Of a DNA stretch of 30,645 nt, positions 182-30,282 are shown piece by piece (within the stretch, counting starts at the first letter, position 1; the number at the start of each line of letters is the position of its first letter). This DNA is from a virus: positions 1 to 30,645 of the IMG/VR virus record IMGVR_UViG_3300032053_000340, one strand, 5' to 3'. Position numbers and translations under genes: made by a program. A model generated the notes under the pieces. The model was not told the DNA's origin. It did no database searches and saw nothing but the letters and a program-made list of their open reading frames with translations.

Positions 182-196
182 ATATAAAATCTCCTT

Positions 197-1090
197 TTAT
201 TTTGATAATCCTACTAACAAAGTCTTTCCTACGCTTTTAGGTAGTATTGATTTTCTTACTCTACCATAAGCACCACACTTGCATCTAAACAATGGGAACT
301 TACTTACCTGAGTATATGAATACTTATCGGGTATCATTTGAATATCAGAGCTTCCACAGTTAGGGCAAACTTCCTCATCAGATTCTACATACAAACCCAA
401 GTTTGGGTGTCCCTTAATCCAAGGGCGTAACTTCAAATATACATCCTCAAGTGTATCAACATCTCCATTATTATATTTCTGCATGTAAGCAAGAGCTTCA
501 TCGTCTCCAGCCACACATCTTTTCCATAGTTCAAAGGTGGTTTCCATTTTCTCTTGAAAACCAAATATCTTAGCTAGACCGTTTAAGCTGTTATGTGTAA
601 ACCCAAACTGCTTTCTAGCTACCAACATTGTATCAATTGTTTGGTATGGGCTTGTTGGAGGTAATCCATGAACGATAAATCTTGTGTTCATGTTAGGAAC
701 ATCAAAGCTATCACCGTTATGGGCAATGATAATATCTGCCTCATCAAGTAATTTCCAAAGACTTTTAACTATCCTACCATCATCCTCTTTTATAGCTTCC
801 TTACCAGTTAACCTATCAGTTAAAATTTCATCCCCAAATAACCACTTAGCACTCCATGTAAGCATGAACCATTCTGATATAACTTGGTCAGCACCTACAT
901 TTGCTTTCCACACGCTCTTCTGAAATATGAAAGCCTGTAGAGGTGATGTTTCAATATCAAATAAAAGAACCTTTGGAAGTTTCTTTTCTTCTGTATCGCC
1001 ACGCAAATATTTTATATAACATTTTGGATGTGACATTGCTGAATGTCTATGCTTACATCTAAATGTAAGTATACTTTCGTCTTTGCTCAT
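197..1090 (-). CDS. DnaQ-like (DEDD) 3'-5' exonuclease with C-terminal zinc ribbon
   Basis: The 297-residue protein carries the three exonuclease motifs of the RNase H-like DEDD superfamily: FDIETSP at 44-50 (acidic D45 and E47), HNGDSFD at 124-130, and a final Asp motif in YNNGDVDTLEDVY at 206-218. The C-terminus has a CPNC pair (242-245) and a CKC pair near 269-271, which should bind zinc. A Cys/His-rich stretch at 12-24 is a second possible metal site. There is no polymerase domain, so it is a stand-alone nuclease. Its place at the end of the replication block suggests a role in DNA repair, recombination or host DNA breakdown. The fold is confident; the exact substrate is not. Confidence 0.85.
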   Translation of the reverse strand: MSKDESILTFRCKHRHSAMSHPKCYIKYLRGDTEEKKLPKVLLFDIETSPLQAFIFQKSVWKANVGADQVISEWFMLTWSAKWLFGDEILTDRLTGKEAIKEDDGRIVKSLWKLLDEADIIIAHNGDSFDVPNMNTRFIVHGLPPTSPYQTIDTMLVARKQFGFTHNSLNGLAKIFGFQEKMETTFELWKRCVAGDDEALAYMQKYNNGDVDTLEDVYLKLRPWIKGHPNLGLYVESDEEVCPNCGSSDIQMIPDKYSYTQVSKFPLFRCKCGAYGRVRKSILPKSVGKTLLVGLSK

Positions 1091-3013: not shown

Positions 3014-3422
3014 TTTTAAGCACCTCTTCATGTAGCTCTGTTACTTTATTTATTATTTCACAGAAGGTATCTAAGTCCATAGCTACAAACACCTTTATGC
3101 CCTCTCTTGCTCCTGAAAACTTACCCATCATTAAAGGAATTGAATTAGAGTTTGACGAGTCTTCTATTATCTTATCAAGCCATTCCTTCTTTAATGTAAG
3201 TTGAGTAGCCCCTCCGTACCCCACTTTTGCCTCTATCCTAAACTTTTTTTCAAACGATTCTATAGTACCAACAACATCACCCTGTAGGTCTGGTTCGTGG
3301 AGAGCAGTACCAATAGCCCCGCTTAGGGGTATCCTCTTCCACGAACTTTTCCTAATGTTGTTATTTAAGATTTCCGCTATTAATCTTTCAAATGAACTTC
3401 CTTTTTGTTTACCTTTTAGCAA
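2985..3422 (-). CDS. Hjc/RecU-like Holliday junction resolvase family nuclease
   Basis: The 145-residue protein begins KGSSFERLIAEIL, the N-terminal Glu-bearing helix of archaeal-type Holliday junction resolvases, followed by DLQGDVVG (active-site Asp about 50-54) and RIEAKVGYGG (E-x-K). These form the PD-(D/E)XK catalytic set, and the length fits the family. The start is TTG (3420-3422), supported by AGGAG 7 bases upstream. A junction-resolving or structure-specific nuclease fits its place next to the helicase. The specific activity is inferred. Confidence 0.75.
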   Translation of the reverse strand: MLKGKQKGSSFERLIAEILNNNIRKSSWKRIPLSGAIGTALHEPDLQGDVVGTIESFEKKFRIEAKVGYGGATQLTLKKEWLDKIIEDSSNSNSIPLMMGKFSGAREGIKVFVAMDLDTFCEIINKVTELHEEVLKNERKEMGSS

Positions 3423-3432
3423 TGTTAATCTC

Positions 3433-4716
3433 CTATTTGTTTTCTATTCTATTAGACTCAGGGTCAAACTTTAAAGTCACCGTTCCTACCGGCCCATTTC
3501 TTGCCTTTAGAATTAGAAACTCCATAGAATTTTTATACTTGGTTTCTTTATTATAATACTCATCTCTATATAAACCAATTACAAAATCAGCGTCTTCTTC
3601 TAAGTTTCCTGATTGTCTAAGGTCTGACATTACTGGACGTTTATTCTCTCTAGCCTCAACACCACGATTTAGCTGTGATACGCCTACTACGCATATCTTC
3701 TGATCATTTGCTATTAACTTGCACATTCTTGAAATTTGACCAAGTTCCGCTGTTTGATTATCTCCACGTTCAGCAAGAAGCTGTAAGTAATCTATATAAA
3801 CAACTTCGATACCCTTAGTGGCTCTGAATTTATAGATGGTTGATTCCATATAATGAATATCAGAATTAAACTTTGTATCAATGTAGATTGGGTACTCCCT
3901 AATTCTTCTCATCGAAGCACCTATCATTTCTATCTGTGGTTTATCTAGTATTCCTAATCTTATGTTCTGAATAGAAACGCCTGATTCTATAGCAACTAAT
4001 CTTTCAACTAGAGATTGATAATTCATTTCCTTTTCAAAGAAAAGAATTGGAACTCCTGCTCTTCCATCCGCTATAATTGAATTACAAAGTAACGCTGTTT
4101 TACCACTACCGGGTCTACCACCTATTACCCACCAGTCTCCCTGTGACTTTCCTCCAGTGGTAACATTAACATCTTTTAATCCCCAAGAGTGACCACGTAC
4201 ACCAGGATTTCCTGTTCTAGCTACAATATCATCAAAGGATTTCTTAATCCCATCCCCAATGTGAACCGTAGCACCTCCACCAGATGTCTCAGTTAAGTCA
4301 TCTAATGTCTTTCTAAAATCTCTAATTGAGTCTTCTACATTATCTAGTGTTAGATTATTAGCCTTTACTTTAGCGGCTGATTCGGCAAAGACTCTTCCTT
4401 TATATGATAGTATTAATTGATTACAATACTCTTTTAGATTGTCTTTATTCCATTCCTGTGCTACAATCCAGTCTAGATATTTTTTATCCCCGACTTTAGA
4501 TAAGTTACCTGAGCTTTCTAAAGAGCTAGACACCATTTGTAAATCTGGAACTAACTGCTTATCGTTTAATAACTCTATTTCCTGGTATATAAGTTGATTT
4601 GGTACAGAGGACATCATAAAAAATCGAACATCTGTTCCATAATACAAATCAGGGTATTTTAATAGAGTAGATAATACCGCAATCTCATGGTCCGTAGAAA
4701 ATAGTTTATCTGCCAT
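3433..4716 (-). CDS. dnaB: DnaB-type replicative DNA helicase
   Basis: The 427-residue protein has the DnaB two-domain layout: an N-terminal helical domain (about 1-105) and a RecA-like ATPase domain. Walker A is GGRPGSGKT at 199-207 and Walker B is VVYIDYLQLL at 305-314. Downstream are SQLNRGVE and DLRQSGNLEEDAD, the DnaB H3/H4 motifs. It should unwind the fork 5'-3' as a hexamer. GGAGG precedes ATG 4714-4716, which abuts the stop of the upstream gene. It is close to the usual DnaB length with no truncation. Confidence 0.93.
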   Translation of the reverse strand: MADKLFSTDHEIAVLSTLLKYPDLYYGTDVRFFMMSSVPNQLIYQEIELLNDKQLVPDLQMVSSSLESSGNLSKVGDKKYLDWIVAQEWNKDNLKEYCNQLILSYKGRVFAESAAKVKANNLTLDNVEDSIRDFRKTLDDLTETSGGGATVHIGDGIKKSFDDIVARTGNPGVRGHSWGLKDVNVTTGGKSQGDWWVIGGRPGSGKTALLCNSIIADGRAGVPILFFEKEMNYQSLVERLVAIESGVSIQNIRLGILDKPQIEMIGASMRRIREYPIYIDTKFNSDIHYMESTIYKFRATKGIEVVYIDYLQLLAERGDNQTAELGQISRMCKLIANDQKICVVGVSQLNRGVEARENKRPVMSDLRQSGNLEEDADFVIGLYRDEYYNKETKYKNSMEFLILKARNGPVGTVTLKFDPESNRIENK

Positions 4717-5127
4717 TTACTTATCCTCCTTTGGACCTTCTAGATATTTGTTAGCCTTTTCAGGGTCAATCTTTTTTACCTTAGCTATATCTTTTTCCAT
4801 GTCAGATATTCTTTTTTCTAGGCTAAACATAGAAGTCATAGCCATATTAGATTCAAGTGTTTTTTCTAGCTTGTTCTTACATATTGTAAATAATAATCCG
4901 TATGGAAATTCGGTTGGGGTATCTATACGAGATGCGTCTATTATAGAAAAGAATACTGATGTTTTCCCAAATAGTTTTACTAGTTGATTAAATCTTATAA
5001 TCTCTGAACGTCCTACATCAAGTCCCATCACAACTCCGTAGAATTGTGCTAAAACTACTCCTGCATTTGGAGCTGTATTTAATCTAGAGAAATATAATTC
5101 TGATAAATTTTCAGGCAATTCTGTCAT
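4717..5127 (-). CDS. Hypothetical protein upstream of helicase (possible loader)
   Basis: The 136-residue protein has a globular N-terminal two thirds and a charged, coiled-coil-like C-terminus (about 98-136). Family not recognised. Its stop abuts the dnaB-like start, so the two are co-translated. A helicase loader or accessory protein is a positional guess only, since no AAA+ motif is present. AAAGGAG precedes ATG 5125-5127. Confidence 0.65.
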   Translation of the reverse strand: MTELPENLSELYFSRLNTAPNAGVVLAQFYGVVMGLDVGRSEIIRFNQLVKLFGKTSVFFSIIDASRIDTPTEFPYGLLFTICKNKLEKTLESNMAMTSMFSLEKRISDMEKDIAKVKKIDPEKANKYLEGPKEDK

Positions 5128-5418
5128 TTACTTCTCCTTTAGGGGGTTTAAATCAACTCCTGCATCATTTAAAACCTGATGAATTCCCACCTCAATGCCC
5201 ATTATTTGATTATGTTTTAAATCTAATTCTAGGTGATAGTTAAGTGCTTCTATTATTTCGTGGATAAGAGTACTATTAAACAAATCAGATTCAATATCAT
5301 TAGCAACCGAAATGGTTTTATCCTTAAAGCTACAAAAACCTACGTTACCAATGCTTTGTTCATATGTCTTAGAAAAATCTAAGTTGTACTCATATCCCAG
5401 TATATTTATTTTTTTCAT
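5128..5418 (-). CDS. Small phage metallopeptidase-like protein (HEIIE)
   Basis: The 96-residue protein has HEIIEALN at 53-60 followed by a leucine- and His-rich helix and the C-terminal GIEVGIHQVLND. This layout is typical of short phage proteins annotated as metallopeptidase-like. The third ligand position of HExxH is Glu (E57), so catalysis is uncertain. The start ATG 5416-5418 has no ribosome binding site at normal distance. The only good one (AAGGAG, overlapping the upstream stop at 5455) lies beyond a 10-bp hairpin, listed separately. Confidence 0.7.
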   Translation of the reverse strand: MKKINILGYEYNLDFSKTYEQSIGNVGFCSFKDKTISVANDIESDLFNSTLIHEIIEALNYHLELDLKHNQIMGIEVGIHQVLNDAGVDLNPLKEK

Positions 5419-8162: not shown

Positions 8163-10055
8163 CTATGATTCTTTAGTCCATCTTTTGCTAATTTTAGCGT
8201 CTGTAATGGCAGGTATTTTTCCGAGTAGCGGTTGAAAAGCTGTAACCATTTCATATCTCATAAAATCTTCTGCCTCCTTTAGGATGGAATCCTCTACCTC
8301 AGCTACAACTTCATCATGCACTTGTAATAGTAAAGAAAATTTGTTACCGAATGGGTTATTATTTTCCATATTTATTATTGATAGCTTTGTTACGTCTGCT
8401 CCACCTCCCTGAATAACCATATTGAAGCCTTCCCTTTTCATCTGAGATGTAATCTTTTCTATTTCATATGGTGTTCCAAATGAGGGTATTGGTTTGAAGT
8501 AACGCTTTCTACCCATAGGAGTAATTGAGTATCCTAGTTCCATAATCTTAGATTCTATTTTTGTTTTTAGTGCAAACAGTCTTGGATAACCTGCCCAGTA
8601 TTCGTCTAATAGGTCTTGGGATTCTTCTAGAGATATCTTAAAGTTTCTCTTTAATCCCCAAATTGTAGTACCATAAATAATAGCGAAGTTCATTGTCTTA
8701 CCAAATTTACGCTCATCTTTGGTTATATCGTGAAAATCTTTTTTAAATTTTAGAGCCGCAGTAGCTATATGCATATCAGCCCCTCTAAGATAAGCGTCTA
8801 AAATTACAGGTTCACCACTCAATGCTCCCGCTAATCTATACTCTTGTTGGCTATAGTCCATCGCTATAAAGCTATATCCCGGTCTAGATATAAATCCCTC
8901 TCTAAATCCATTATCAATTGGTATATTCTGAAGGTTTGGATTCTTAGATGAAAATCTTCCGGTCTGTGTCCCAACCTGGAAATACTCCGTATGAATCTTA
9001 CCAGTTACTGGATTTATAAGGTCAATGATGTTCTGACCGTAGGTACTTAATCTTTTTTCGTAGTCTCTGTATTCTAATATTACATCTATAATATCATTTT
9101 GTGGTAGTTTATTCAGTGTTTTTTCATTTGTATCTGGAGTATCTATTCCACATAGATGTAAAGCTGTTAGTAATTGTTTATGTGAACCTATATTAAAGTT
9201 TTCATTAATCCAAATCATTGATACTGATGGGTCTACTATAGACTCTAATATCTTTTGAAGCTTCTTTGCTTTAACTGGTATTGCTAGGGCTCTAGCGAAT
9301 TGGTAGGCGTTTCCATATGATGCCACTGGAACTGAATTAAATATTAAGTCCTTCATGACTTTAGATAGTCTAACTATATTGCTTTCTGAGTCTTTAATTA
9401 ATCCATTCCAATGCTCAACATCTAATAGTATACCCTGTAATTCCATTTTAGCTACTGCTGGAACTAGGTTCATTTCTAATTCTATAGTAGGTAATAATCC
9501 CTCTTTTGTAGCTAATTCTATTTGGCTGTTATATATTTTGTCTAAGTATAAAATGTCTGTTCCGGCATAGGTTATCTGTTGATCTGTAAATGTTGAATTC
9601 CAATCCATATCAATGAATTCTAGGCGTGTATCTTTAACTAATTCTTCACCGCAATATTTACTTACCAACTTAGCTAGTGATGATAATTTATCACCAACTC
9701 CCGCAGTTAGTACAGATTCTACAATCATGGTATCGTGTAAGTTTCTTAGTAGAATACCTGTATCTGTATGTAATATTTTTATATCGAATTTTATATTATG
9801 ACCAATACACTTTATATTATTTTCTTTAATGATTTCTAATAATTTAGTAAAGAATAATTTACCTAAATTTCCCCTATGCATTACATAGACGTTATCCCCA
9901 ACCCCAATCTGAACAAGAAGTATTTTACTAATGAGTGGGTCTATACCAGTTGTTTCAGTATCTAATCCTATCATAGATACATTTGACAAATCAGATATTA
10001 AACCACCAATCTCTTTCTTATTATTTGCCAAACTTTCTATGAAACATATAGTCAC
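8163..10055 (-). CDS. polA: Family A DNA polymerase with 3'-5' exonuclease
   Basis: The 630-residue protein lacks a 5' nuclease domain. Its exonuclease domain carries LDTET (31-35), HNIKFD (86-91) and YAGTD (163-167). The polymerase domain has TGRFSSKNPNLQNIP (365-379), motif A DYSQQEYR (400-407), motif B RKFGKTMNFAIIYG (449-462, with R449, K453, F457, Y461) and motif C QVHDE (578-582). All catalytic residues are intact. Start is GTG (10053-10055) after AAGGAG. The leader upstream is highly structured (10077-10216). It is the likely replicative polymerase of the phage. Confidence 0.96.
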   Translation of the reverse strand: MTICFIESLANNKKEIGGLISDLSNVSMIGLDTETTGIDPLISKILLVQIGVGDNVYVMHRGNLGKLFFTKLLEIIKENNIKCIGHNIKFDIKILHTDTGILLRNLHDTMIVESVLTAGVGDKLSSLAKLVSKYCGEELVKDTRLEFIDMDWNSTFTDQQITYAGTDILYLDKIYNSQIELATKEGLLPTIELEMNLVPAVAKMELQGILLDVEHWNGLIKDSESNIVRLSKVMKDLIFNSVPVASYGNAYQFARALAIPVKAKKLQKILESIVDPSVSMIWINENFNIGSHKQLLTALHLCGIDTPDTNEKTLNKLPQNDIIDVILEYRDYEKRLSTYGQNIIDLINPVTGKIHTEYFQVGTQTGRFSSKNPNLQNIPIDNGFREGFISRPGYSFIAMDYSQQEYRLAGALSGEPVILDAYLRGADMHIATAALKFKKDFHDITKDERKFGKTMNFAIIYGTTIWGLKRNFKISLEESQDLLDEYWAGYPRLFALKTKIESKIMELGYSITPMGRKRYFKPIPSFGTPYEIEKITSQMKREGFNMVIQGGGADVTKLSIINMENNNPFGNKFSLLLQVHDEVVAEVEDSILKEAEDFMRYEMVTAFQPLLGKIPAITDAKISKRWTKES

Positions 10056-10076
10056 TATTTCTCCTTATAATGAGGA

Positions 10077-10216
10077 AGGACATGTTCAGGTCGCTCTATT
10101 GTGTGATGAATGCTCAATCAGTTAACAGCTCGAAAGCTCCGATTTTTTAGGTATTGGATGAACCCTATACCGCCTCACACTACGTCTTAGTGACGATAGC
10201 CCTCAATGCATGTCCT
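10077..10216 (-). ncRNA. Structured polA leader or small RNA closed by an 8-bp stem
   Basis: AGGACATG and CATGTCCT (10077-10084 and 10209-10216) form a perfect 8-bp terminal stem around about 125 bases. Inside are CACTA/TAGTG and AGCT-TTCG-AGCT hairpins, a GGTAT/ATACC stem, and a possible GTGTGA/TCACAC long-range pair. It starts 3 bases after the tRNA-Pro 3' end and stops shortly before the polA ribosome binding site. It could be a processed RNA or a regulatory leader; no known riboswitch class is recognised. Confidence 0.5.
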
Positions 10217-10218
10217 AG

Positions 10219-10291
10219 TCGGGAAAAGTGGAGTCGAACCACCATATCCTCGCTTCCAAAGCGAGTCCTCTATCCATTAAGGTACTTCCCG
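10219..10291 (-). tRNA. tRNA-Pro(TGG)
   Basis: Acceptor stem CGGGAAG pairs over 7 bp with one G-U. The anticodon stem CTCGC/GCGAG holds loop TTTGGAA, giving anticodon TGG. The T arm has TTCGACT. Discriminator A; CCA is not encoded. It is the last tRNA before polA. Confidence 0.93.
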
Positions 10292-10615
10292 ATAATGTTC
10301 AATATTATGGCATCTAGAGTATAAACTCTATTAACCATTATTCCTTTGTTTCTAGAAGAGGTTTGTAATCTATTAACCAATCTTTAGATTGGTTAAGAGA
10401 AGGCTCTTCTCTTTAAGTACTTAAGCTCTTAGAGCTCTTTATGCTAAAATTCACTATGCGAGTAGGCAACTCTAATTAAACTATTAATTAGATAGTCTAT
10501 ACTCGCAGATGTTTAGGTTGACTGGTTAACCATATGGAATATGCATCTGCGAAGAACATATTTCCACTCATCTCCACCAGGAGGTAGTGACCCGAATTCT
10601 AAGTTTCGGTAACTT
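10292..10615 (-). ncRNA. Highly structured RNA read from its own promoter
   Basis: No convincing gene lies here, but stems are dense: an 11-bp hairpin (10373-10383 with 10386-10396), a 7-bp hairpin (10395-10401 with 10407-10413), a 7-bp stem (10458-10464 with 10500-10506) enclosing an 8-bp hairpin (10472-10479 with 10484-10491), and an 8-bp stem (10504-10511 with 10544-10551). An 11-base direct repeat, TGGTTAATAGA, occurs twice (10327-10337 and 10369-10379). The promoter at 10622-10650 would start the RNA at about 10615. It lies between tRNA-Asp and tRNA-Pro. The RNA class is not recognised. Confidence 0.6.
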
Positions 10616-10929: not shown

Positions 10930-11946
10930 TTATTCGTGACATGGGTGCTGTATATATTCTTTATGCACCTTTAATCTAGTTTGTCCAAAAGCTTCATAAA
11001 CTGGAATTCCCTCCCAGTCTGGTTGAAGAGTTAAATCTAAAGCATAAGCAACTGTAGCGGCTGTATCCATTGTCTGTATTGGTACTGTAAGTTCTCCAGG
11101 AACAATCCCAGGTCCATATATAATCCAGGGGATACGGAAGTCTTGAATAACAGTTCCCTCATGATTTTTATCGTGTCCACCGTGATCTGCAGTAACAATA
11201 ATTAAAGTGGTTTCTCTTAAACCGTTATCGTCTAGTGCAGTTAATATGTCTCTTAAAGCATCGTCTCCAAAAGTTAAAACTTTTAGATATGAGTACCCCA
11301 TCCAAGTATATTTATGACCTACCTTATCAGGAGTTGGAAAATGTACAAACATTAATCCAAAATCCTTTTGTATTTCTTCTACTGCTATCTTAGATATAGA
11401 TGCCTCATCGTACCGTATTTCAAATACATCCGTTGTCTCTGGTTCAGCCAACTGCCTCAACTTGTCTTTTCCAACTATCATTACAGTACGCATTCCAGCT
11501 TTATGGGCAAGGTCGAATATATCAACCCCTTTTGAATATCCCATGTATTTGAAATACCTATCGAATACTATTCCAGTATCCTGCATACATAGTCCAGATA
11601 GCATTGATGCGTGACTTGGAAGTGTAGATGGGTATGCAATAGTTTCCGCACTCGTTAGGGAATAAGCACTATTCTCCATTAACTTTAATAAGTTAGGCAT
11701 GGGTGCTTTTGATATTGCATCCGGCCTCATTCCATCATAGCTTATTACAAGTACCCGTTCTATTTTTGGTACTGGTATGGGAGTTTGAGTCGGAGTTTGA
11801 GTTGATGTTGAAGTAACTATAGGAGTTACAGCCACATCTACTAATACAGGAGTTTGTAAAATACTGGTAACTAATAAAGCAGTTACCATTACAAAATCTA
11901 CCACAAATAATACAGGTTTAACTAGTCGTCTATTTAATTTTTTCAT
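10930..11946 (-). CDS. Exported or membrane-anchored phosphodiesterase, alkaline phosphatase superfamily
   Basis: The 338-residue protein has a basic N-terminus and a hydrophobic segment (about 10-45), then a Thr/Pro-rich linker (44-60). The catalytic domain matches type I phosphodiesterase/nucleotide pyrophosphatases: ISYDGMRPD (metal Asp D71), YPSTLPSHASMLSG (nucleophile T108), HFPTPDKVGHKY (Asp and His ligands) and TADHGGHD (metal ligands). It should hydrolyse phosphodiester or phosphonate bonds outside the cytoplasm. Its ATG comes 2 bases after the tRNA-Leu(TAG) 3' end with no good ribosome binding site, and its stop is 2 bases before tRNA-Leu(TAA). It is rare cargo in a phage tRNA array; substrate unknown. 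Confidence 0.85.
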   Translation of the reverse strand: MKKLNRRLVKPVLFVVDFVMVTALLVTSILQTPVLVDVAVTPIVTSTSTQTPTQTPIPVPKIERVLVISYDGMRPDAISKAPMPNLLKLMENSAYSLTSAETIAYPSTLPSHASMLSGLCMQDTGIVFDRYFKYMGYSKGVDIFDLAHKAGMRTVMIVGKDKLRQLAEPETTDVFEIRYDEASISKIAVEEIQKDFGLMFVHFPTPDKVGHKYTWMGYSYLKVLTFGDDALRDILTALDDNGLRETTLIIVTADHGGHDKNHEGTVIQDFRIPWIIYGPGIVPGELTVPIQTMDTAATVAYALDLTLQPDWEGIPVYEAFGQTRLKVHKEYIQHPCHE

Positions 11947-13034: not shown

Positions 13035-13110
13035 TGGATATGGGAGGATTTGAACCTCCAGTCAGGATATTTTGAGTATCCCAGGTATGCCAGTTTCCCA
13101 TCACATATCC
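13035..13110 (-). tRNA. tRNA-Leu(CAA) without long variable arm
   Basis: GGATATG/CATATCC acceptor, GGATA/TATCC anticodon stem, loop CTCAAAA with anticodon CAA, Leu-like D loop AAACTGGCATA, T arm GGAGG TTCAAAT CCTCC. The variable region is short (about TGACT), a second Leu tRNA that has lost the class II arm. Confidence 0.88.
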
Positions 13111-13293
13111 TTATATTCTATGTTCCTTATATTCAAATGTACATACAGGTCTATCGTAGTTATTGACTACTGGACTGTATTGTTTCATACCAAATAGAAC
13201 TCCCATAACCATTATTATTAATATACATATAAAAAATGCTACCAGAGATAGAAAGAACATTCTAATGTTGTATCTGTTAGTTTCGTCTATCAT
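13111..13293 (-). CDS. Small single-pass membrane protein
   Basis: The 60-residue protein has one strong transmembrane helix (about 12-35, MFFLSLVAFFICILIIMVMG) between polar ends. AAGGAG precedes ATG 13291-13293. Its stop codon touches the 5' end of tRNA-Leu(CAA) with no gap. Function unknown; possibly a moron acting at the host membrane. Confidence 0.75.
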   Translation of the reverse strand: MIDETNRYNIRMFFLSLVAFFICILIIMVMGVLFGMKQYSPVVNNYDRPVCTFEYKEHRI

Positions 13294-13305
13294 AATATCT
13301 CCTTG

Positions 13306-13379
13306 TGCAGATAAAAGGATTCGGACCTTTAATCTCTCGTGTATCAGACGAGGGCTTTGACCAGTTAAGCTACATCTGC
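13306..13379 (-). tRNA. tRNA-Ile(GAT)
   Basis: GCAGATG/TATCTGC acceptor, CTCGT/ACGAG anticodon stem, loop CTGATAC with anticodon GAT, T loop TCCGAAT, discriminator A, no CCA. Confidence 0.93.
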
Positions 13380-13380
13380 A

Positions 13381-14100
13381 TTACTTACAATTCTTTCCAC
13401 TCATAGCACATGTTCTTACATTTGGAATACCAGTGAAATAGAAAGTGCCGATTCCTTTTTCCTGAGTTTGAATATACGGACCAGGCCATTTTCCCCTAGG
13501 AGTAACAACCTCAGTTTCTGACCACCAGTACATATATGCCCCATCTTTCTTTTTTACTTCTAAACTGTATACATAATCTACTATTTCAATGTATTCAGAT
13601 AAATCTGGAGGATTTATAATCTCATTCCAATCGTCCATTCCCAAATCCGTATCAGCATCTGTATTAAAAAGTGGAGTAAATGCTGATAATTGTTTAATAA
13701 ATTTATCTGGAGTATCTCCAAAATATTTAAATCTATATCTAATACCCTTACCCATATTTACCTTATCTGTATAAGAAAGAGTAGCACCCTCTTCATAAAT
13801 AAGCCACGCAACTAGATCTCTTTCTGTTGGAGCGCCATCTCCCCACCACCCACCTGATTTTGAAATGGTATCATATATGATTTTTGTTCTATCCTCTCTC
13901 GATAGAATCCACCACTCCGCATCTATTGGAAAATAAATCTCAACAGTTTCTTCAAGTGTTGTTTCATACATGGAAACATAAAGTTCTTTATTATTAAGAG
14001 TGCCAACTGGTATAGGTTGCTGTACAGCTATTGGCTGTAAGGCTGTTAGTAATGATAGTTCAATAATCAATATTAATTTTAATATAATTTTTTTAATCAT
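13381..14100 (-). CDS. Exported protein, possible SleB-like cell-wall hydrolase
   Basis: The 239-residue protein has a signal-peptide-like N-terminus (MIKKIILKLILIIELSLLTA). Residues about 94-150 resemble the SleB/CwlJ hydrolase fold: LVAWLIYEEGATLSYTDK (candidate catalytic E103/E104) and later KQLSAFTPLF in the place of the family's FSAF motif. This is a distant match by eye. Export plus peptidoglycan cleavage would fit a lysis or wall-remodelling role. Its ATG lies 1 base after the tRNA-Lys(CTT) 3' end and its stop 1 base before tRNA-Ile(GAT); no clear ribosome binding site outside the tRNA. Confidence 0.6.
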   Translation of the reverse strand: MIKKIILKLILIIELSLLTALQPIAVQQPIPVGTLNNKELYVSMYETTLEETVEIYFPIDAEWWILSREDRTKIIYDTISKSGGWWGDGAPTERDLVAWLIYEEGATLSYTDKVNMGKGIRYRFKYFGDTPDKFIKQLSAFTPLFNTDADTDLGMDDWNEIINPPDLSEYIEIVDYVYSLEVKKKDGAYMYWWSETEVVTPRGKWPGPYIQTQEKGIGTFYFTGIPNVRTCAMSGKNCK

Positions 14101-14101
14101 G

Positions 14102-14174
14102 TGGCTCTACCGAGACTCGAACTCGAATTTACTGTTTAAGAGACAGTTACTCTAACCAATTGAGTTATAAAGCC
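14102..14174 (-). tRNA. tRNA-Lys(CTT)
   Basis: GGCTTTA/TAGAGCC acceptor, ACTGT/ACAGT anticodon stem, loop CTCTTAA with anticodon CTT, T loop TTCGAGT, discriminator A. The next ORF's ATG follows after a single base. Confidence 0.93.
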
Positions 14175-14181
14175 ATTCTAG

Positions 14182-14250
14182 CAGTGAGTGAACGAATCGG
14201 ACGCTCGCATACGATTTTGGAGATCGGTTTGTCACCATGACATACTCACC
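14182..14250 (-). tRNA. tRNA-Trp(CCA)
   Basis: GGTGAGT/ACTCACT acceptor with a terminal G-U, loop CTCCAAA with anticodon CCA, T loop TCCGATT, discriminator G as expected for Trp. At 69 bases it is short but complete. Confidence 0.9.
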
Positions 14251-14253
14251 ATA

Positions 14254-14326
14254 ATTAATTTCTACGCCAACTCCTCTACGTATATATGAATACGTTTTCT
14301 GTTTTCAGAAGTACTATGAAATTAAT
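14254..14326 (-). ncRNA. Terminal-stem RNA element between tRNA-Ala and tRNA-Trp
   Basis: ATTAATTTC (14254-14262) and GAAATTAAT (14318-14326) form a 9-bp closing stem. Inside are hairpins TTCTG/CAGAA and ACGTAT/ATACGT. It begins 3 bases from the tRNA-Trp 5' end and 12 from tRNA-Ala. It is too short and lacks T-loop features for a tRNA. Confidence 0.45.
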
Positions 14327-14338
14327 AAACAGTCATTG

Positions 14339-14409
14339 TGGACATCCAGGAAATCGAATCCTGATTTTTACATTGCAGGTGTAAAGTAATCCCATTATAC
14401 GAGACGCCC
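14339..14409 (-). tRNA. tRNA-Ala(TGC)
   Basis: GGGCGTC/GATGTCC acceptor carries the G3-U70 wobble pair that identifies Ala tRNAs. Anticodon stem TTACA/TGTAA, loop CCTGCAA with anticodon TGC and C33 in place of the near-universal U33. T arm CAGGA TTCGATT TCCTG, discriminator A. Confidence 0.88.
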
Positions 14410-14492
14410 TTGGCAAATTTTTTGGTCAGGAGAAACCTGCTAAACTCCATCCGTTTTTCTAGACCTTGTTGGCTTTCGGATACCAACTTAAG

Positions 14493-14565
14493 TGAACTTG
14501 AGAGGATTCGGACCTCCAACACCCTGTATGTAACGCAGGTGCTCTGACCGTTGAGCTACAAGTTC
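14493..14565 (-). tRNA. tRNA-Val(TAC)
   Basis: GAACTTG/CAAGTTC acceptor, CCTGC/ACAGG anticodon stem with an inner C-A mismatch, loop GTTACAT with anticodon TAC, T arm GGAGG TCCGAAT CCTCT, discriminator A. Confidence 0.92.
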
Positions 14566-14568
14566 ATG

Positions 14569-14640
14569 TGTGTTCCGTTGGTATCGAGCCAACCTTCTCT
14601 GCTCTTCAGGCAGAAGCTAATCCGTCTCAGCTAGGAACAC
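14569..14640 (-). tRNA. tRNA-Phe(GAA)
   Basis: GTGTTCC/GGAACAC acceptor, TCTGC/GCAGA anticodon stem, loop CTGAAGA with anticodon GAA, T arm GTTGG CTCGATA CCAAC, discriminator A. The 5' end is the boundary of the GC-richer integron-derived patch, and the reading frame from that patch runs 14 bases into this tRNA. Confidence 0.92.
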
Positions 14641-14884
14641 ATTCTCCTGCCTTAGCCACGTCAGGTGCATGCTTTGTTAGGTGGCGCACATATTTAAACG
14701 GCTCATCGCTATGCTTGTACAAAGTTTGCGGGATTGACTTTCCAGCCCACAACCAACCTTCGACAAGTATAAACTCACAATCTGGCGCGTCGTAAATAAA
14801 AAGAACATCTCCAACATCATCGCCTACATCAAAGGTGTGATAATCCCAATCAAGAACAATTACGGGGCAACTCTCATTTTGCAT
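14627..14884 (-). CDS. Integron-cassette ORF, hypothetical acidic protein
   Basis: From ATG 14882-14884 this gives 85 residues (MQNESCPVIVLDWDYHTFDV onward); a GTG at 14891-14893 inside the attC end is an alternative start. It begins just after the attC R' core site, where integron cassette ORFs normally begin. The likely native protein ends near PFKYV. The last 18 residues or so (RHLTKHAPDVAKAG and after) are a read-through of a second, truncated attC and of tRNA-Phe. Family not recognised. Base composition and codon use are richer in G+C than the flanking phage genes. Confidence 0.65.
   Translation of the reverse strand: MQNESCPVIVLDWDYHTFDVGDDVGDVLFIYDAPDCEFILVEGWLWAGKSIPQTLYKHSDEPFKYVRHLTKHAPDVAKAGECVPS
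14650..14682 (-). other. Truncated attC, 5' half
   Basis: On the minus strand, the R'' core ACCTAAC (14676-14682) is followed by AAAGC and an L''-like segment ATGCACCTGACGTGGC. The matching L' and R' half is absent: the sequence runs into tRNA-Phe instead. Confidence 0.65.
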
Positions 14885-14891
14885 ATTAGCC

Positions 14892-15014
14892 ACCTAACGG
14901 TTTGCGTTAGCGGCGGCGATTAAAGCAATGCGTACAAATATCGAGCGCATTAACATTTTGATAACCGCATTCCGCACAAGCCCAAAAGCCGTCCGCCTGC
15001 ACGCTGGGTTGGGC
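14892..15014 (-). other. Integron attC recombination site
   Basis: On the minus strand the site opens with R'' GCCCAAC (15008-15014) and L''-like AGCGTGCAGGCGGACG, and closes with L'-like GCCGCCGCTAACGC and R' GTTAGGT (14892-14898). The cores match RYYYAAC and GTTRRRY, the arms are imperfectly complementary with extra-helical bases, and the 123-base length is within the known attC range. The central part is coding for a zinc ribbon of the overlapping ORF. Confidence 0.8.
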
Positions 15015-15302
15015 TTCGTCATTGCCAAGCGGGACACTTTGAGCAAGCACAGTCAATTTGTCAAGGTCTAATTCCATATATTCAGATAAATCAATTAAAT
15101 CAGTGGGGTCTATAAAACCTCTATGAAGATATAAAGTACCTCCATCGGTAAAGATACGACCACATTTACACTGTACAAAATCATGTCTATGTTTACTTTC
15201 TATTATATCTTTACATACAGAACATTGACACCGATTGCGAACTATCTTTCTTTCTGTTTGCATGGCAATCCTTCTAGCCTGTGACTTACTTTTTATCTCC
15301 AT
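14907..15302 (-). CDS. Chimeric zinc-ribbon protein with attC-encoded C-terminus
   Basis: The 131-residue protein has two parts. Residues 1 to about 88 (CQCSVCKDIIESKHRHDF, CKCGRIFTDGGTLYLHR) match a small phage zinc-binding family with CxC..C and CxC sites (DUF7695-like, from memory). From about residue 90 the composition changes, and AQPSVQADG is a direct translation of the attC R''/L'' arm. The end, WACAECGYQN...CTHC, is a RanBP2-like zinc ribbon coded inside the attC centre. AAAGGAG precedes ATG 15300-15302. A cassette end appears to have been fused to the phage gene. Confidence 0.75.
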   Translation of the reverse strand: MEIKSKSQARRIAMQTERKIVRNRCQCSVCKDIIESKHRHDFVQCKCGRIFTDGGTLYLHRGFIDPTDLIDLSEYMELDLDKLTVLAQSVPLGNDEAQPSVQADGFWACAECGYQNVNALDICTHCFNRRR

Positions 15303-15318
15303 ATCATTTCTCCTTTAG

Positions 15319-15390
15319 TACACCTAGTAGGAATTGAACCCACATCCCAAAGTTCGTAGCTTTGTATCCTATCCGTTGAACGATAGATGC
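15319..15390 (-). tRNA. tRNA-Arg(ACG)
   Basis: GCATCTA/TAGGTGT acceptor with G1-U72 and another wobble, CAAAG/CTTTG anticodon stem, loop CTACGAA with anticodon ACG (needs A-to-I editing for CGN reading), T loop TTCAATT, discriminator A. Confidence 0.9.
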
Positions 15391-16916: not shown

Positions 16917-16921
16917 ATAGG

Positions 16922-16993
16922 TGTTCTCTACGGGAATCGGACCCGTTATTTCTCCTTGAAGGGGAGGCGTCTTAGCCAGTAGACCAAGAGAAC
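16922..16993 (-). tRNA. tRNA-Glu(TTC)
   Basis: GTTCTCT/AGAGAAC acceptor, CTCC/GGAG anticodon stem, loop CCTTCAA with anticodon TTC and C33 instead of U33, Glu-like D arm GTCTACTGG, T loop TCCGATT, discriminator A (G is usual for Glu). Confidence 0.87.
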
Positions 16994-28607: not shown

Positions 28608-29507
28608 TTATTTGGTCTCCTTTTCTTTACTATAGTTTTGAATAAGTTTATTTAATATATAGTTTTGAATATTAATCCATTTATGATAGAAAGAAATGAA
28701 TTCATCCATCACCTTTGGAGTCTCTCTTAGAGTGCTAAAGACGTAAGTCCAGTTGTCAGTACTAAAATTTCTATGAATATACTTAGTTGGACCATTTGCT
28801 CCATATAAGAACCCATTAGTACCTGGTCTAAATACATCTGATAGTAGATAGATTCCAAGAAAAACTATATCAGATTCTGGAACATCACTATACTCATGGA
28901 GAAAACGAGTTTGTTCTATTACCAGATTAAAAAAGGCTTTGGGGTTGCAGATAGACTCAAAACTCGGAGCTATTTTCATAAGATTTGAAAATATCCTTAG
29001 AAATAGAAGAACCGCTGATATGGATATTGGAGATACTGACGATGTTTCCCAAAAATAAAGCTTAACTCCCTCACCCTCTTTAGGATCTCCACACTTTAGT
29101 TTTAATTGTGTTTTTATAACTCCCGCAAGCATTCTCTCAAGAGCTATTTTTTGATCAGCATCTAGAAGATTTATTGCATCTCTAGTTTTCCTATCCGCAT
29201 TGGAGTTACAACATATCTCAACGAATGGAATATACCCAGCCTGCTTTAGAAATTCTTGTCTAGGATAGTTATTCGCTAGATAACCCACAATCCTTTCTCT
29301 ACAATTTTCTGATCGAATTTTTAGAGTATATACCAATTCTTTAGACTTGAGAGTTTCCATCATTATCTGATTTATGCTTATAGCCGCCAGTGAAAAATGA
29401 CTTTTATAGAAATCAATGATAGAATCTGACAGCACAGGAGTACCTCTGTTCAGACTCTCAGAAGTACAATTTATACAGAAACTAGTTATATCGTAGTAAT
29501 TACTCAC
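28608..29507 (-). CDS. Hypothetical protein
   Basis: The 299-residue protein from GTG (29505-29507), chosen because GGAGG lies 6 bases upstream and because the longer frame would overlap the amidotransferase by 140 bases. It begins (V)SNYYDITSFCINCTSE; the CINC pair and later Cys (about 108-112) may bind metal. The body is largely helical. It overlaps the amidotransferase stop by 8 bases, suggesting coupling to that enzyme. Family not recognised. Confidence 0.7.
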   Translation of the reverse strand: MSNYYDITSFCINCTSESLNRGTPVLSDSIIDFYKSHFSLAAISINQIMMETLKSKELVYTLKIRSENCRERIVGYLANNYPRQEFLKQAGYIPFVEICCNSNADRKTRDAINLLDADQKIALERMLAGVIKTQLKLKCGDPKEGEGVKLYFWETSSVSPISISAVLLFLRIFSNLMKIAPSFESICNPKAFFNLVIEQTRFLHEYSDVPESDIVFLGIYLLSDVFRPGTNGFLYGANGPTKYIHRNFSTDNWTYVFSTLRETPKVMDEFISFYHKWINIQNYILNKLIQNYSKEKETK

Positions 29508-30282
29508 TATCTTCCTCCTCCTCATCACTATCAAAAAGATTATTAATATTTTGCTCCTGTTGTACAAAATCTGTTGAAATTGTTGAGGATACTGTAGTAA
29601 AGATACTAGGTATATCCATAACCGATACGGGACTACTAGCAAATTTGAAGGAGGGTTCCGGTTCCTCTGCTATTTTAATTTCTCCACTAACCCAATCCTT
29701 GATTTGAGAGAAAAACTTATCTCCGATATCTTTAGAGAACATCTCTGGATGAAATTGAACCCCCAAACTCCGTCTTCCAAAGGTAGCAATCTCACAGATA
29801 CCAGTCTTAGGTTCTGTAGCCAGTGATCGAGGATTACCTCCTAGCACACCAAAGTTTTTAACGGCTTGGTGATGAAGAGAGTTTACTACTTTTAGCCAAG
29901 AAAATGCATTTGGAACTGAATGTTCCAGCTGGTGGACTCCCTGATGCCCTAAGTTCTCAGAGCCCAAATCTTGAAAAAGATTTCCAGCGTAAAATACATT
30001 AAGAAGTTGCATACCTCTGCATACTCCAAGTACCTTAATAGATGGTATGCTTTGTAAAACTCTATCCAAAATACCAAACTCGATAGTATCTCTTTCGTTA
30101 TTCCAACCCATAGCACCATCCGGCGCCTCATGATACCTTTCTGGATTTACATCAGAGCCCCCAGTTAATATAAGTAAATCCAATTTTTTAGGTACTTTAC
30201 CAACATCTCCTATAACACTCATATCTTTAAACCAGGTTTTATAGTACCCAGCCATGTGAGCAGTTGCACATGCTACTTTCAT
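29500..30282 (-). CDS. Class I glutamine amidotransferase (peptidase C26-like)
   Basis: The 260-residue protein has LLILTGGSDVNP (39-47), nucleophile motif GVCRGMQ (C88) and QFHPEM (H178, E180), the complete triad of class I amidotransferases/gamma-glutamyl hydrolases. The C-terminus is a Ser/Glu-rich acidic tail. GGAGG precedes ATG 30280-30282. Together with the amidoligase directly upstream it forms the amidoligase-amidotransferase pair described in phages (phiEco32-type), thought to make or remodel amide/peptide links. Substrate unknown. Confidence 0.88.
   Translation of the reverse strand: MKVACATAHMAGYYKTWFKDMSVIGDVGKVPKKLDLLILTGGSDVNPERYHEAPDGAMGWNNERDTIEFGILDRVLQSIPSIKVLGVCRGMQLLNVFYAGNLFQDLGSENLGHQGVHQLEHSVPNAFSWLKVVNSLHHQAVKNFGVLGGNPRSLATEPKTGICEIATFGRRSLGVQFHPEMFSKDIGDKFFSQIKDWVSGEIKIAEEPEPSFKFASSPVSVMDIPSIFTTVSSTISTDFVQQEQNINNLFDSDEEEEDSE

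Follow-up and report, generated by a model that had tools for sequence, protein, structure and literature searches.

The locus raises the question of how a short segment resembling part of an integron gene-cassette array came to lie within a phage tRNA array, where it came from, and what it has done to the genes beside it. The window, by which we mean the whole stretch of DNA that was analysed, is a 30,645-base viral record of IMG/VR. It holds 26 tRNA genes on the minus strand (ARAGORN, Rfam) and, by Pfam, replication genes for PolA, a DnaB-type helicase, RecA and ribonucleotide reductase, an endowment that makes the phage look virulent. A contig of the same species, L002, is 99.96% identical to the window in nucleotides over 9.7 kb, which shows that the population is real; since L002 ends at window position 9874, the insert is not spanned by a second contig. 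At window 190-202 the population varies, L002 having about 466 additional bases there. Among other features of the window, a tRNA with a UCA anticodon (16920-16993, minus strand), called SeC and only 74 nt long, is possibly a UGA-reading tRNA; a TGA stop occurs in only 3 of the 29 window genes checked. A type I phosphodiesterase/nucleotide pyrophosphatase gene (10930-11946, minus strand), with no close relative in IMG/VR, lies between two tRNA-Leu genes, and the phage also has a glutamine amidotransferase (Peptidase_C26) gene (29500-30282, minus strand).

An earlier note on this DNA, made by reading the letters, had described a full 123-base attC with R'', L'', L' and R' on the minus strand, and had proposed a covariance model (CM) as a check. 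All four boxes are present, and the site, here called attC1, is a genuine attC (Table 1). Our own model, CM R1, was built from 34 aligned bacterial attC, none from the window, with the R and L pairs included. The bacterial sites were found by R-box and palindrome rules in 80 integron loci gathered with a consensus probe for integron integrase, the rows of which were composed from conserved blocks and not from records. Pair covariation in the alignment was strong, with 86.8% of cells paired vs 72.4% when shuffled, and the model recovered 160 sites in the bacterial integron loci, scoring 16-59 bits; all those listed were minus-strand sites, the orientation to be expected when arrays lie upstream of an intI carried on the plus strand. 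With an E cut-off of 10, attC1 was the sole match in the window, found in the cassette-sense orientation alone, and a repeated scan of the whole record returned the same single match. Related viral DNA gave no match in 0.11 Mb and, in 0.99 Mb more, only one at 12.3 bits (E = 4.7), and thus nothing significant in 1.1 Mb. The R'' and R' boxes, GCCCAAC and GTTAGGT, conform to RYYYAAC and GTTRRRY and form six of seven pairs, and the CM R1 score reflects an imperfect L''/L' stem with extrahelical bases. The attC-constrained fold of the bottom strand has -17.8 kcal/mol vs -18.7 for the unconstrained fold; free RNA or DNA folding of the strand gave no significant z-score, a measure that is uninformative for long-loop attC.

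Table 1. Positions of the insert, its parts and its borders in the window
Feature	Position	Strand	Basis and remarks
tRNA-Phe, downstream insert border	14568-14640	-	ARAGORN and Rfam
Cassette ORF, 85 aa	14630-14884	-	Translation; reads through attC2 and ends 11 nt inside tRNA-Phe
attC2, truncated second attC	14641-14682	-	R'' ACCTAAC 14676-14682, spacer, L''; without 3' half
attC1, complete attC site, 123 nt	14892-15014	-	CM R1 32.6 bits, E = 7.7e-7
R' box GTTAGGT of attC1, recombination point G^TT	14892-14898	-	Sequence
L' arm of attC1, GCCGCCGCTAACGC	14904-14917	-	Includes the TAA that ends the 131-aa ORF
Variable loop of attC1	14918-14987	-	Translation: RanBP2-like zinc ribbon FWACAECGYQNVNALDICTHC in frame
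L'' arm of attC1, GCGTGCAGGCGGACGGC	14988-15004	-	Constrained bottom-strand fold; pairs with L', leaving extrahelical bases
R'' box GCCCAAC of attC1	15008-15014	-	Sequence; CM alignment
131-aa ORF, DUF7695 protein with attC-encoded zinc-ribbon tail in frame	14907-15302	-	Pfam DUF7695, 1.7e-22, residues 19-75
Upstream phage/cassette junction zone (approximate)	15015-15071	-	End of DUF7695 homology; GC/GC3 rise
tRNA-Arg(acg), upstream neighbour	15318-15390	-	tRNA calls; order conserved in L003

What follows attC1 has the order of an integron array. The ORF noted right after R' begins with an ATG 8 nt downstream of it, and the AGGTGG of R' is a plausible and likely ribosome site for this frame. 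Across the second R''/L'' (HLTKHAPDVAKAGE) the frame resembles other cassettes of the attC lineage defined below (LTKRAPDVAKSGE). The second R'' and truncated arm, here attC2, are also as described: the R''-spacer-L'' fits the lineage pattern RYCYAACNNNGCRTGCANNNGACG at every specified base, aligns with an attC of the phage array L274, and stops at the first base of tRNA-Phe, without L' or R'; it is too short for the CM. The succession of attC1, ORF and half attC2 thus supports the cassette-attC order that had been read here, and the GC-richer patch is borne out by windowed GC, which over 14641-15050 is 0.476 vs 0.358 for the whole window, a value reached by 0.1% of 410-nt windows. Searches of plasmids, viral and genome contigs, 50 integron-bearing genomes and 201 genomes of one order gave no homologue of the cassette ORF; the sole weak match, at E = 0.04, contains stops.

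The segment is less than any of the integron structures to which it might be assigned. A mobile gene cassette is an ORF between two complete attC recombination points, and because attC2 is without L' and R', cassette 2 presumably cannot be excised as a circle. A CALIN has two or more attC within a few kb and no intI, whereas the window has one complete site and one half. A complete integron has intI and attI beside the array; the window holds no such arrangement, and the listed and scanned ORFs of the window include no recognised integron integrase. With a single complete attC and no intI detected, we take the segment to be a probable relic. As a separate observation, the bases at 14644-14659, at the end of attC2, are identical over 16 nt to the phage tRNA-Cys (15437-15452, minus strand). 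This identity may be a recombination scar or a coincidence, and we do not rely on it as the former; the same bases align with the attC of L274.

On the upstream side, attC1 sits within the 3' end of a 131-aa phage ORF, an overlap that the earlier note had overlooked. The final residues of this protein, FWACAECGYQNVNALDICTHCFNRRR, are encoded by the attC1 loop and L', and its stop is the TAA within L'. The tail has the spacing of a RanBP2-like zinc ribbon, but its Pfam match is weak (E = 0.1); it is closest to an in-frame tail within an attC of L294 (tblastn E = 1e-5). Phage homologues of the DUF7695 protein have no such tail and either stop after the domain or continue differently. Thus, gp64 of Geobacillus virus E3 and a protein of Acinetobacter phage Ab3 have the conserved Cys-rich domain in common with the window protein, but gp64, at 62 aa, ends after the domain, and the Ab3 protein has an unrelated C-terminus. 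The GC3 of the 131-aa ORF climbs from 0.23 to 0.48 at residue 85, and the join of phage and cassette DNA therefore lies between about 15071 and 15014. AlphaFold, run on single sequences, gave a pLDDT of 35-38 for both the fusion and the cassette protein, too low to be informative. Both proteins are presumably expressed.

The place of the insert is defined by a relative, L003 (86 kb), whose PolA is 51% identical to that of the window. The two agree in their order of tRNAs, Cys - Arg(acg) - slot - Phe - Val - Ala, the L003 tRNA-Cys gene being truncated where its contig ends. The Arg-Phe slot of L003 contains two other ORFs and neither the DUF7695 gene nor an attC. The earlier note had named, as evidence against its reading, the absence of an attC model match and related phages with the same sequence outside any cassette context. 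Neither was observed: the model does match, and this syntenic relative does not have the sequence at all.

Sites of the same kind recur on other phage contigs. Scans of IMG/VR with two attC patterns returned 43 and 83 stretches, in many of which the CM confirmed arrays; the pattern modelled on attC2 gave at least 56 loci with CM-confirmed attC, 43 of them with two or more. The lineage is defined by arms of the form ..GCRTGCA..GACG / ..TAACGCAAACCGTT.., together with a frame that stays open up to the TAA in L'. attC1 falls within this definition, with one extra G in L'' that is common to L238 and L294, and its arms are closest to those of L238, L283 and L295. By gene content several of these contigs are phages: their arrays neighbour genes for terminase, portal and minor head proteins (L316, G270), a phage integrase and terminase (L314), a distal tail protein and DnaB (L313), DnaB and a tail fibre (L312), and a primase, an integron integrase and terminase (L315). 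These five contigs are a non-random sample chosen for mid-contig arrays; other arrays are situated at the ends of contigs. In a sample of 77 large ORFs of lineage loci, terminase large subunit was the commonest match, and portal, coat, tape-measure, endolysin and integrase were also matched. L316 has two attC arrays, at 4513-5167 (minus) and 13057-15021 (plus), one of them between portal and minor head genes. Different cassettes carry homologous attC loops ..NNFMVLRSRPCG in L239, L278, L275 and L262 (attC starts at 3401, 4235, 5229 and 11311, respectively), as if these loops had been exchanged or homogenised. An integron integrase ORF occurs together with attC on L315 (G257; 9457-10437 and neighbours), L270 and L289; on L315 both lie between phage primase/partition genes and terminase, and L315 seems to be a phage carrying a whole integron. 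The three integron integrases from lineage contigs group in a single clade (100/94), whose neighbour is an integrase of Planctomycetota (98/81). We dropped the notion that the lineage is restricted to phages, as Methylococcaceae and a few Planctomycetota also carry it.

Our reading, held with considerable confidence, is that part of an integron gene-cassette array, of a lineage from the arrays of other phages, entered illegitimately and was stranded in a phage tRNA slot. The segment would consist of the 3' end of cassette 1 with its complete attC, then cassette 2, then the 5' half of the cassette 2 attC, and would occupy a variable slot between tRNA-Arg and tRNA-Phe that swaps genes between relatives. 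It probably came in by illegitimate recombination, for neither of its ends resembles an IntI product, with a clean G^TT junction. The upstream join would have placed the phage DUF7695 gene in frame with a cassette tail from the attC loop, and the lasting effect would be an in-frame zinc-ribbon tail on DUF7695 and an extra small ORF. The bottom strand of attC1 could fold, and an IntI supplied by the host, or an integrase from another phage, could then recombine it. The donor was probably a phage-borne array, since the closest match to attC1 sits in such a phage, and on sequence grounds phages appear the likelier source; the donor array itself was not found. Thus, the capture of part of a cassette array, as the earlier note had it, holds up, but the donor need not be bacterial as that note supposed.

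A chromosomal integron of a bacterium, for example that of the phage host, is nevertheless a possible though rather unlikely donor, one that would leave the rest of the account the same. An attC of Methylococcaceae L020 has 22 of the 26 bases of the 3' arm in common with attC1, the lineage pattern occurs in 4 of 392 Planctomycetota genomes (with a CM match of E<0.01 at three such loci), and, as noted, the integrases of the phage contigs group beside one from Planctomycetota. However, the loop and arms nearest to attC1 are on phage contigs, the bacterial attC of at least 100 nt that were examined have neither coding frame bias nor zinc motif, and no bacterial homologue of the cassette ORF was found. 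A chimera, formed in assembly or library construction from phage and integron-bearing contigs, is improbable. The composition does change sharply at the insert, and the locus is known from a single contig with no independent one across it; but the insert has phage tRNA genes in conserved order on either side, the phage/cassette join is in frame, the sole shared stretch near a junction is, at 16 nt, below usual assembly k-mers, and the same attC type is present on many phage contigs. Finally, that a zinc-ribbon coding sequence merely looks palindromic, as the position of attC1 inside an ORF and its lack of special stability in free folding might suggest, can be dismissed with near certainty in the face of a strand-specific CM match (E = 8e-7) that is the only one in the window, a second R''-L'' half site in correct order, and near-identical arms in attC arrays elsewhere.

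Of 93 distinct lineage sites of at least 100 nt, 73 have the frame ending at the L' TAA open through the loop, vs about 34 after shuffling, and the other two loop frames are open in 34 and 49 of the same sites. In the L'-TAA frame of 146 sites, C-x2-C...C-x2-C is found in 9 and a single C-x2-C in 23; shuffled sequences gave 0 and 4, respectively. At 44 sites the attC is entered, for at least 20 codons, by an upstream ORF with a length of 40 codons or more. Neither frame bias nor zinc motif was seen in 26 bacterial attC of at least 100 nt (9, 13 and 6 open in the three frames), in further bacterial sites or in the other viral pattern set, a comparison that rests on few bacterial sites and on a lineage set chosen by similarity to the window site, and that confounds lineage with phage context. 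A codon-position test for selection on the tails showed a slight third-position excess, on an alignment that was protein-guided and hence biased. We regard as evenly balanced the proposition that this attC lineage of uncultivated phages is dual-purpose: the hairpin loop would also be a translated exon that supplies cassette proteins, always in the same frame, with short tails at the C-terminus that are often zinc ribbons; illegitimate joining could graft such tails onto ordinary phage genes, DUF7695 being an example; and the recombination site would double as a protein-tail module.

The occurrence of attC in phages is already known, and the coding loop of the window site is a variant. Qi et al. 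2023 (PMC9892861) reported attC clusters without intI (CALINs) in virulent and temperate phages, and IntI1 used 5 of the 6 virulent-phage attC tested there. The window resembles those CALINs in having attC and cassettes in a phage without a nearby integrase, and differs in its tRNA-array setting, the overlap with a phage gene and the coding loop; the main text of that paper mentions neither tRNA nor zinc, and no paper joining attC with zinc ribbons was found in the literature searched, where the two papers that contain both attC and zinc finger concern, by their titles, other subjects. As to the claim that attC are unusual in phage tRNA arrays, a tRNA array is present at none of the 60 surveyed lineage loci, which makes the setting of the window an unusual one in that sample; attC in phages, however, are not new (PMC9892861), and the lineage recurs. 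Closest to the window are the IMG/VR phage arrays L238/G261, L294 and L274, with near-identical arm stretches, the same attC reading frame and zinc-ribbon tails; lineage arrays mostly have several complete sites, and three have an integron integrase, whereas the window has one complete site and no integrase was found in it. The chromosomal attC of Methylococcaceae L020 and Chloroflexi L080, at 124-125 nt, are like attC1 in R and L boxes and hairpin pairs; unlike attC1, the chromosomal bacterial sites examined have no loop coding bias and no zinc motif.

For phage biology, the window supports the view that integron cassettes are carried by phages in uncultivated populations, and it presents a cassette fragment within a tRNA array. 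The lineage-wide claim of coding loops is the part worth testing. If true, integron recombination sites would also write the C-terminus of the proteins that they move, and phage cassette arrays would be a large, nearly unexplored gene pool.
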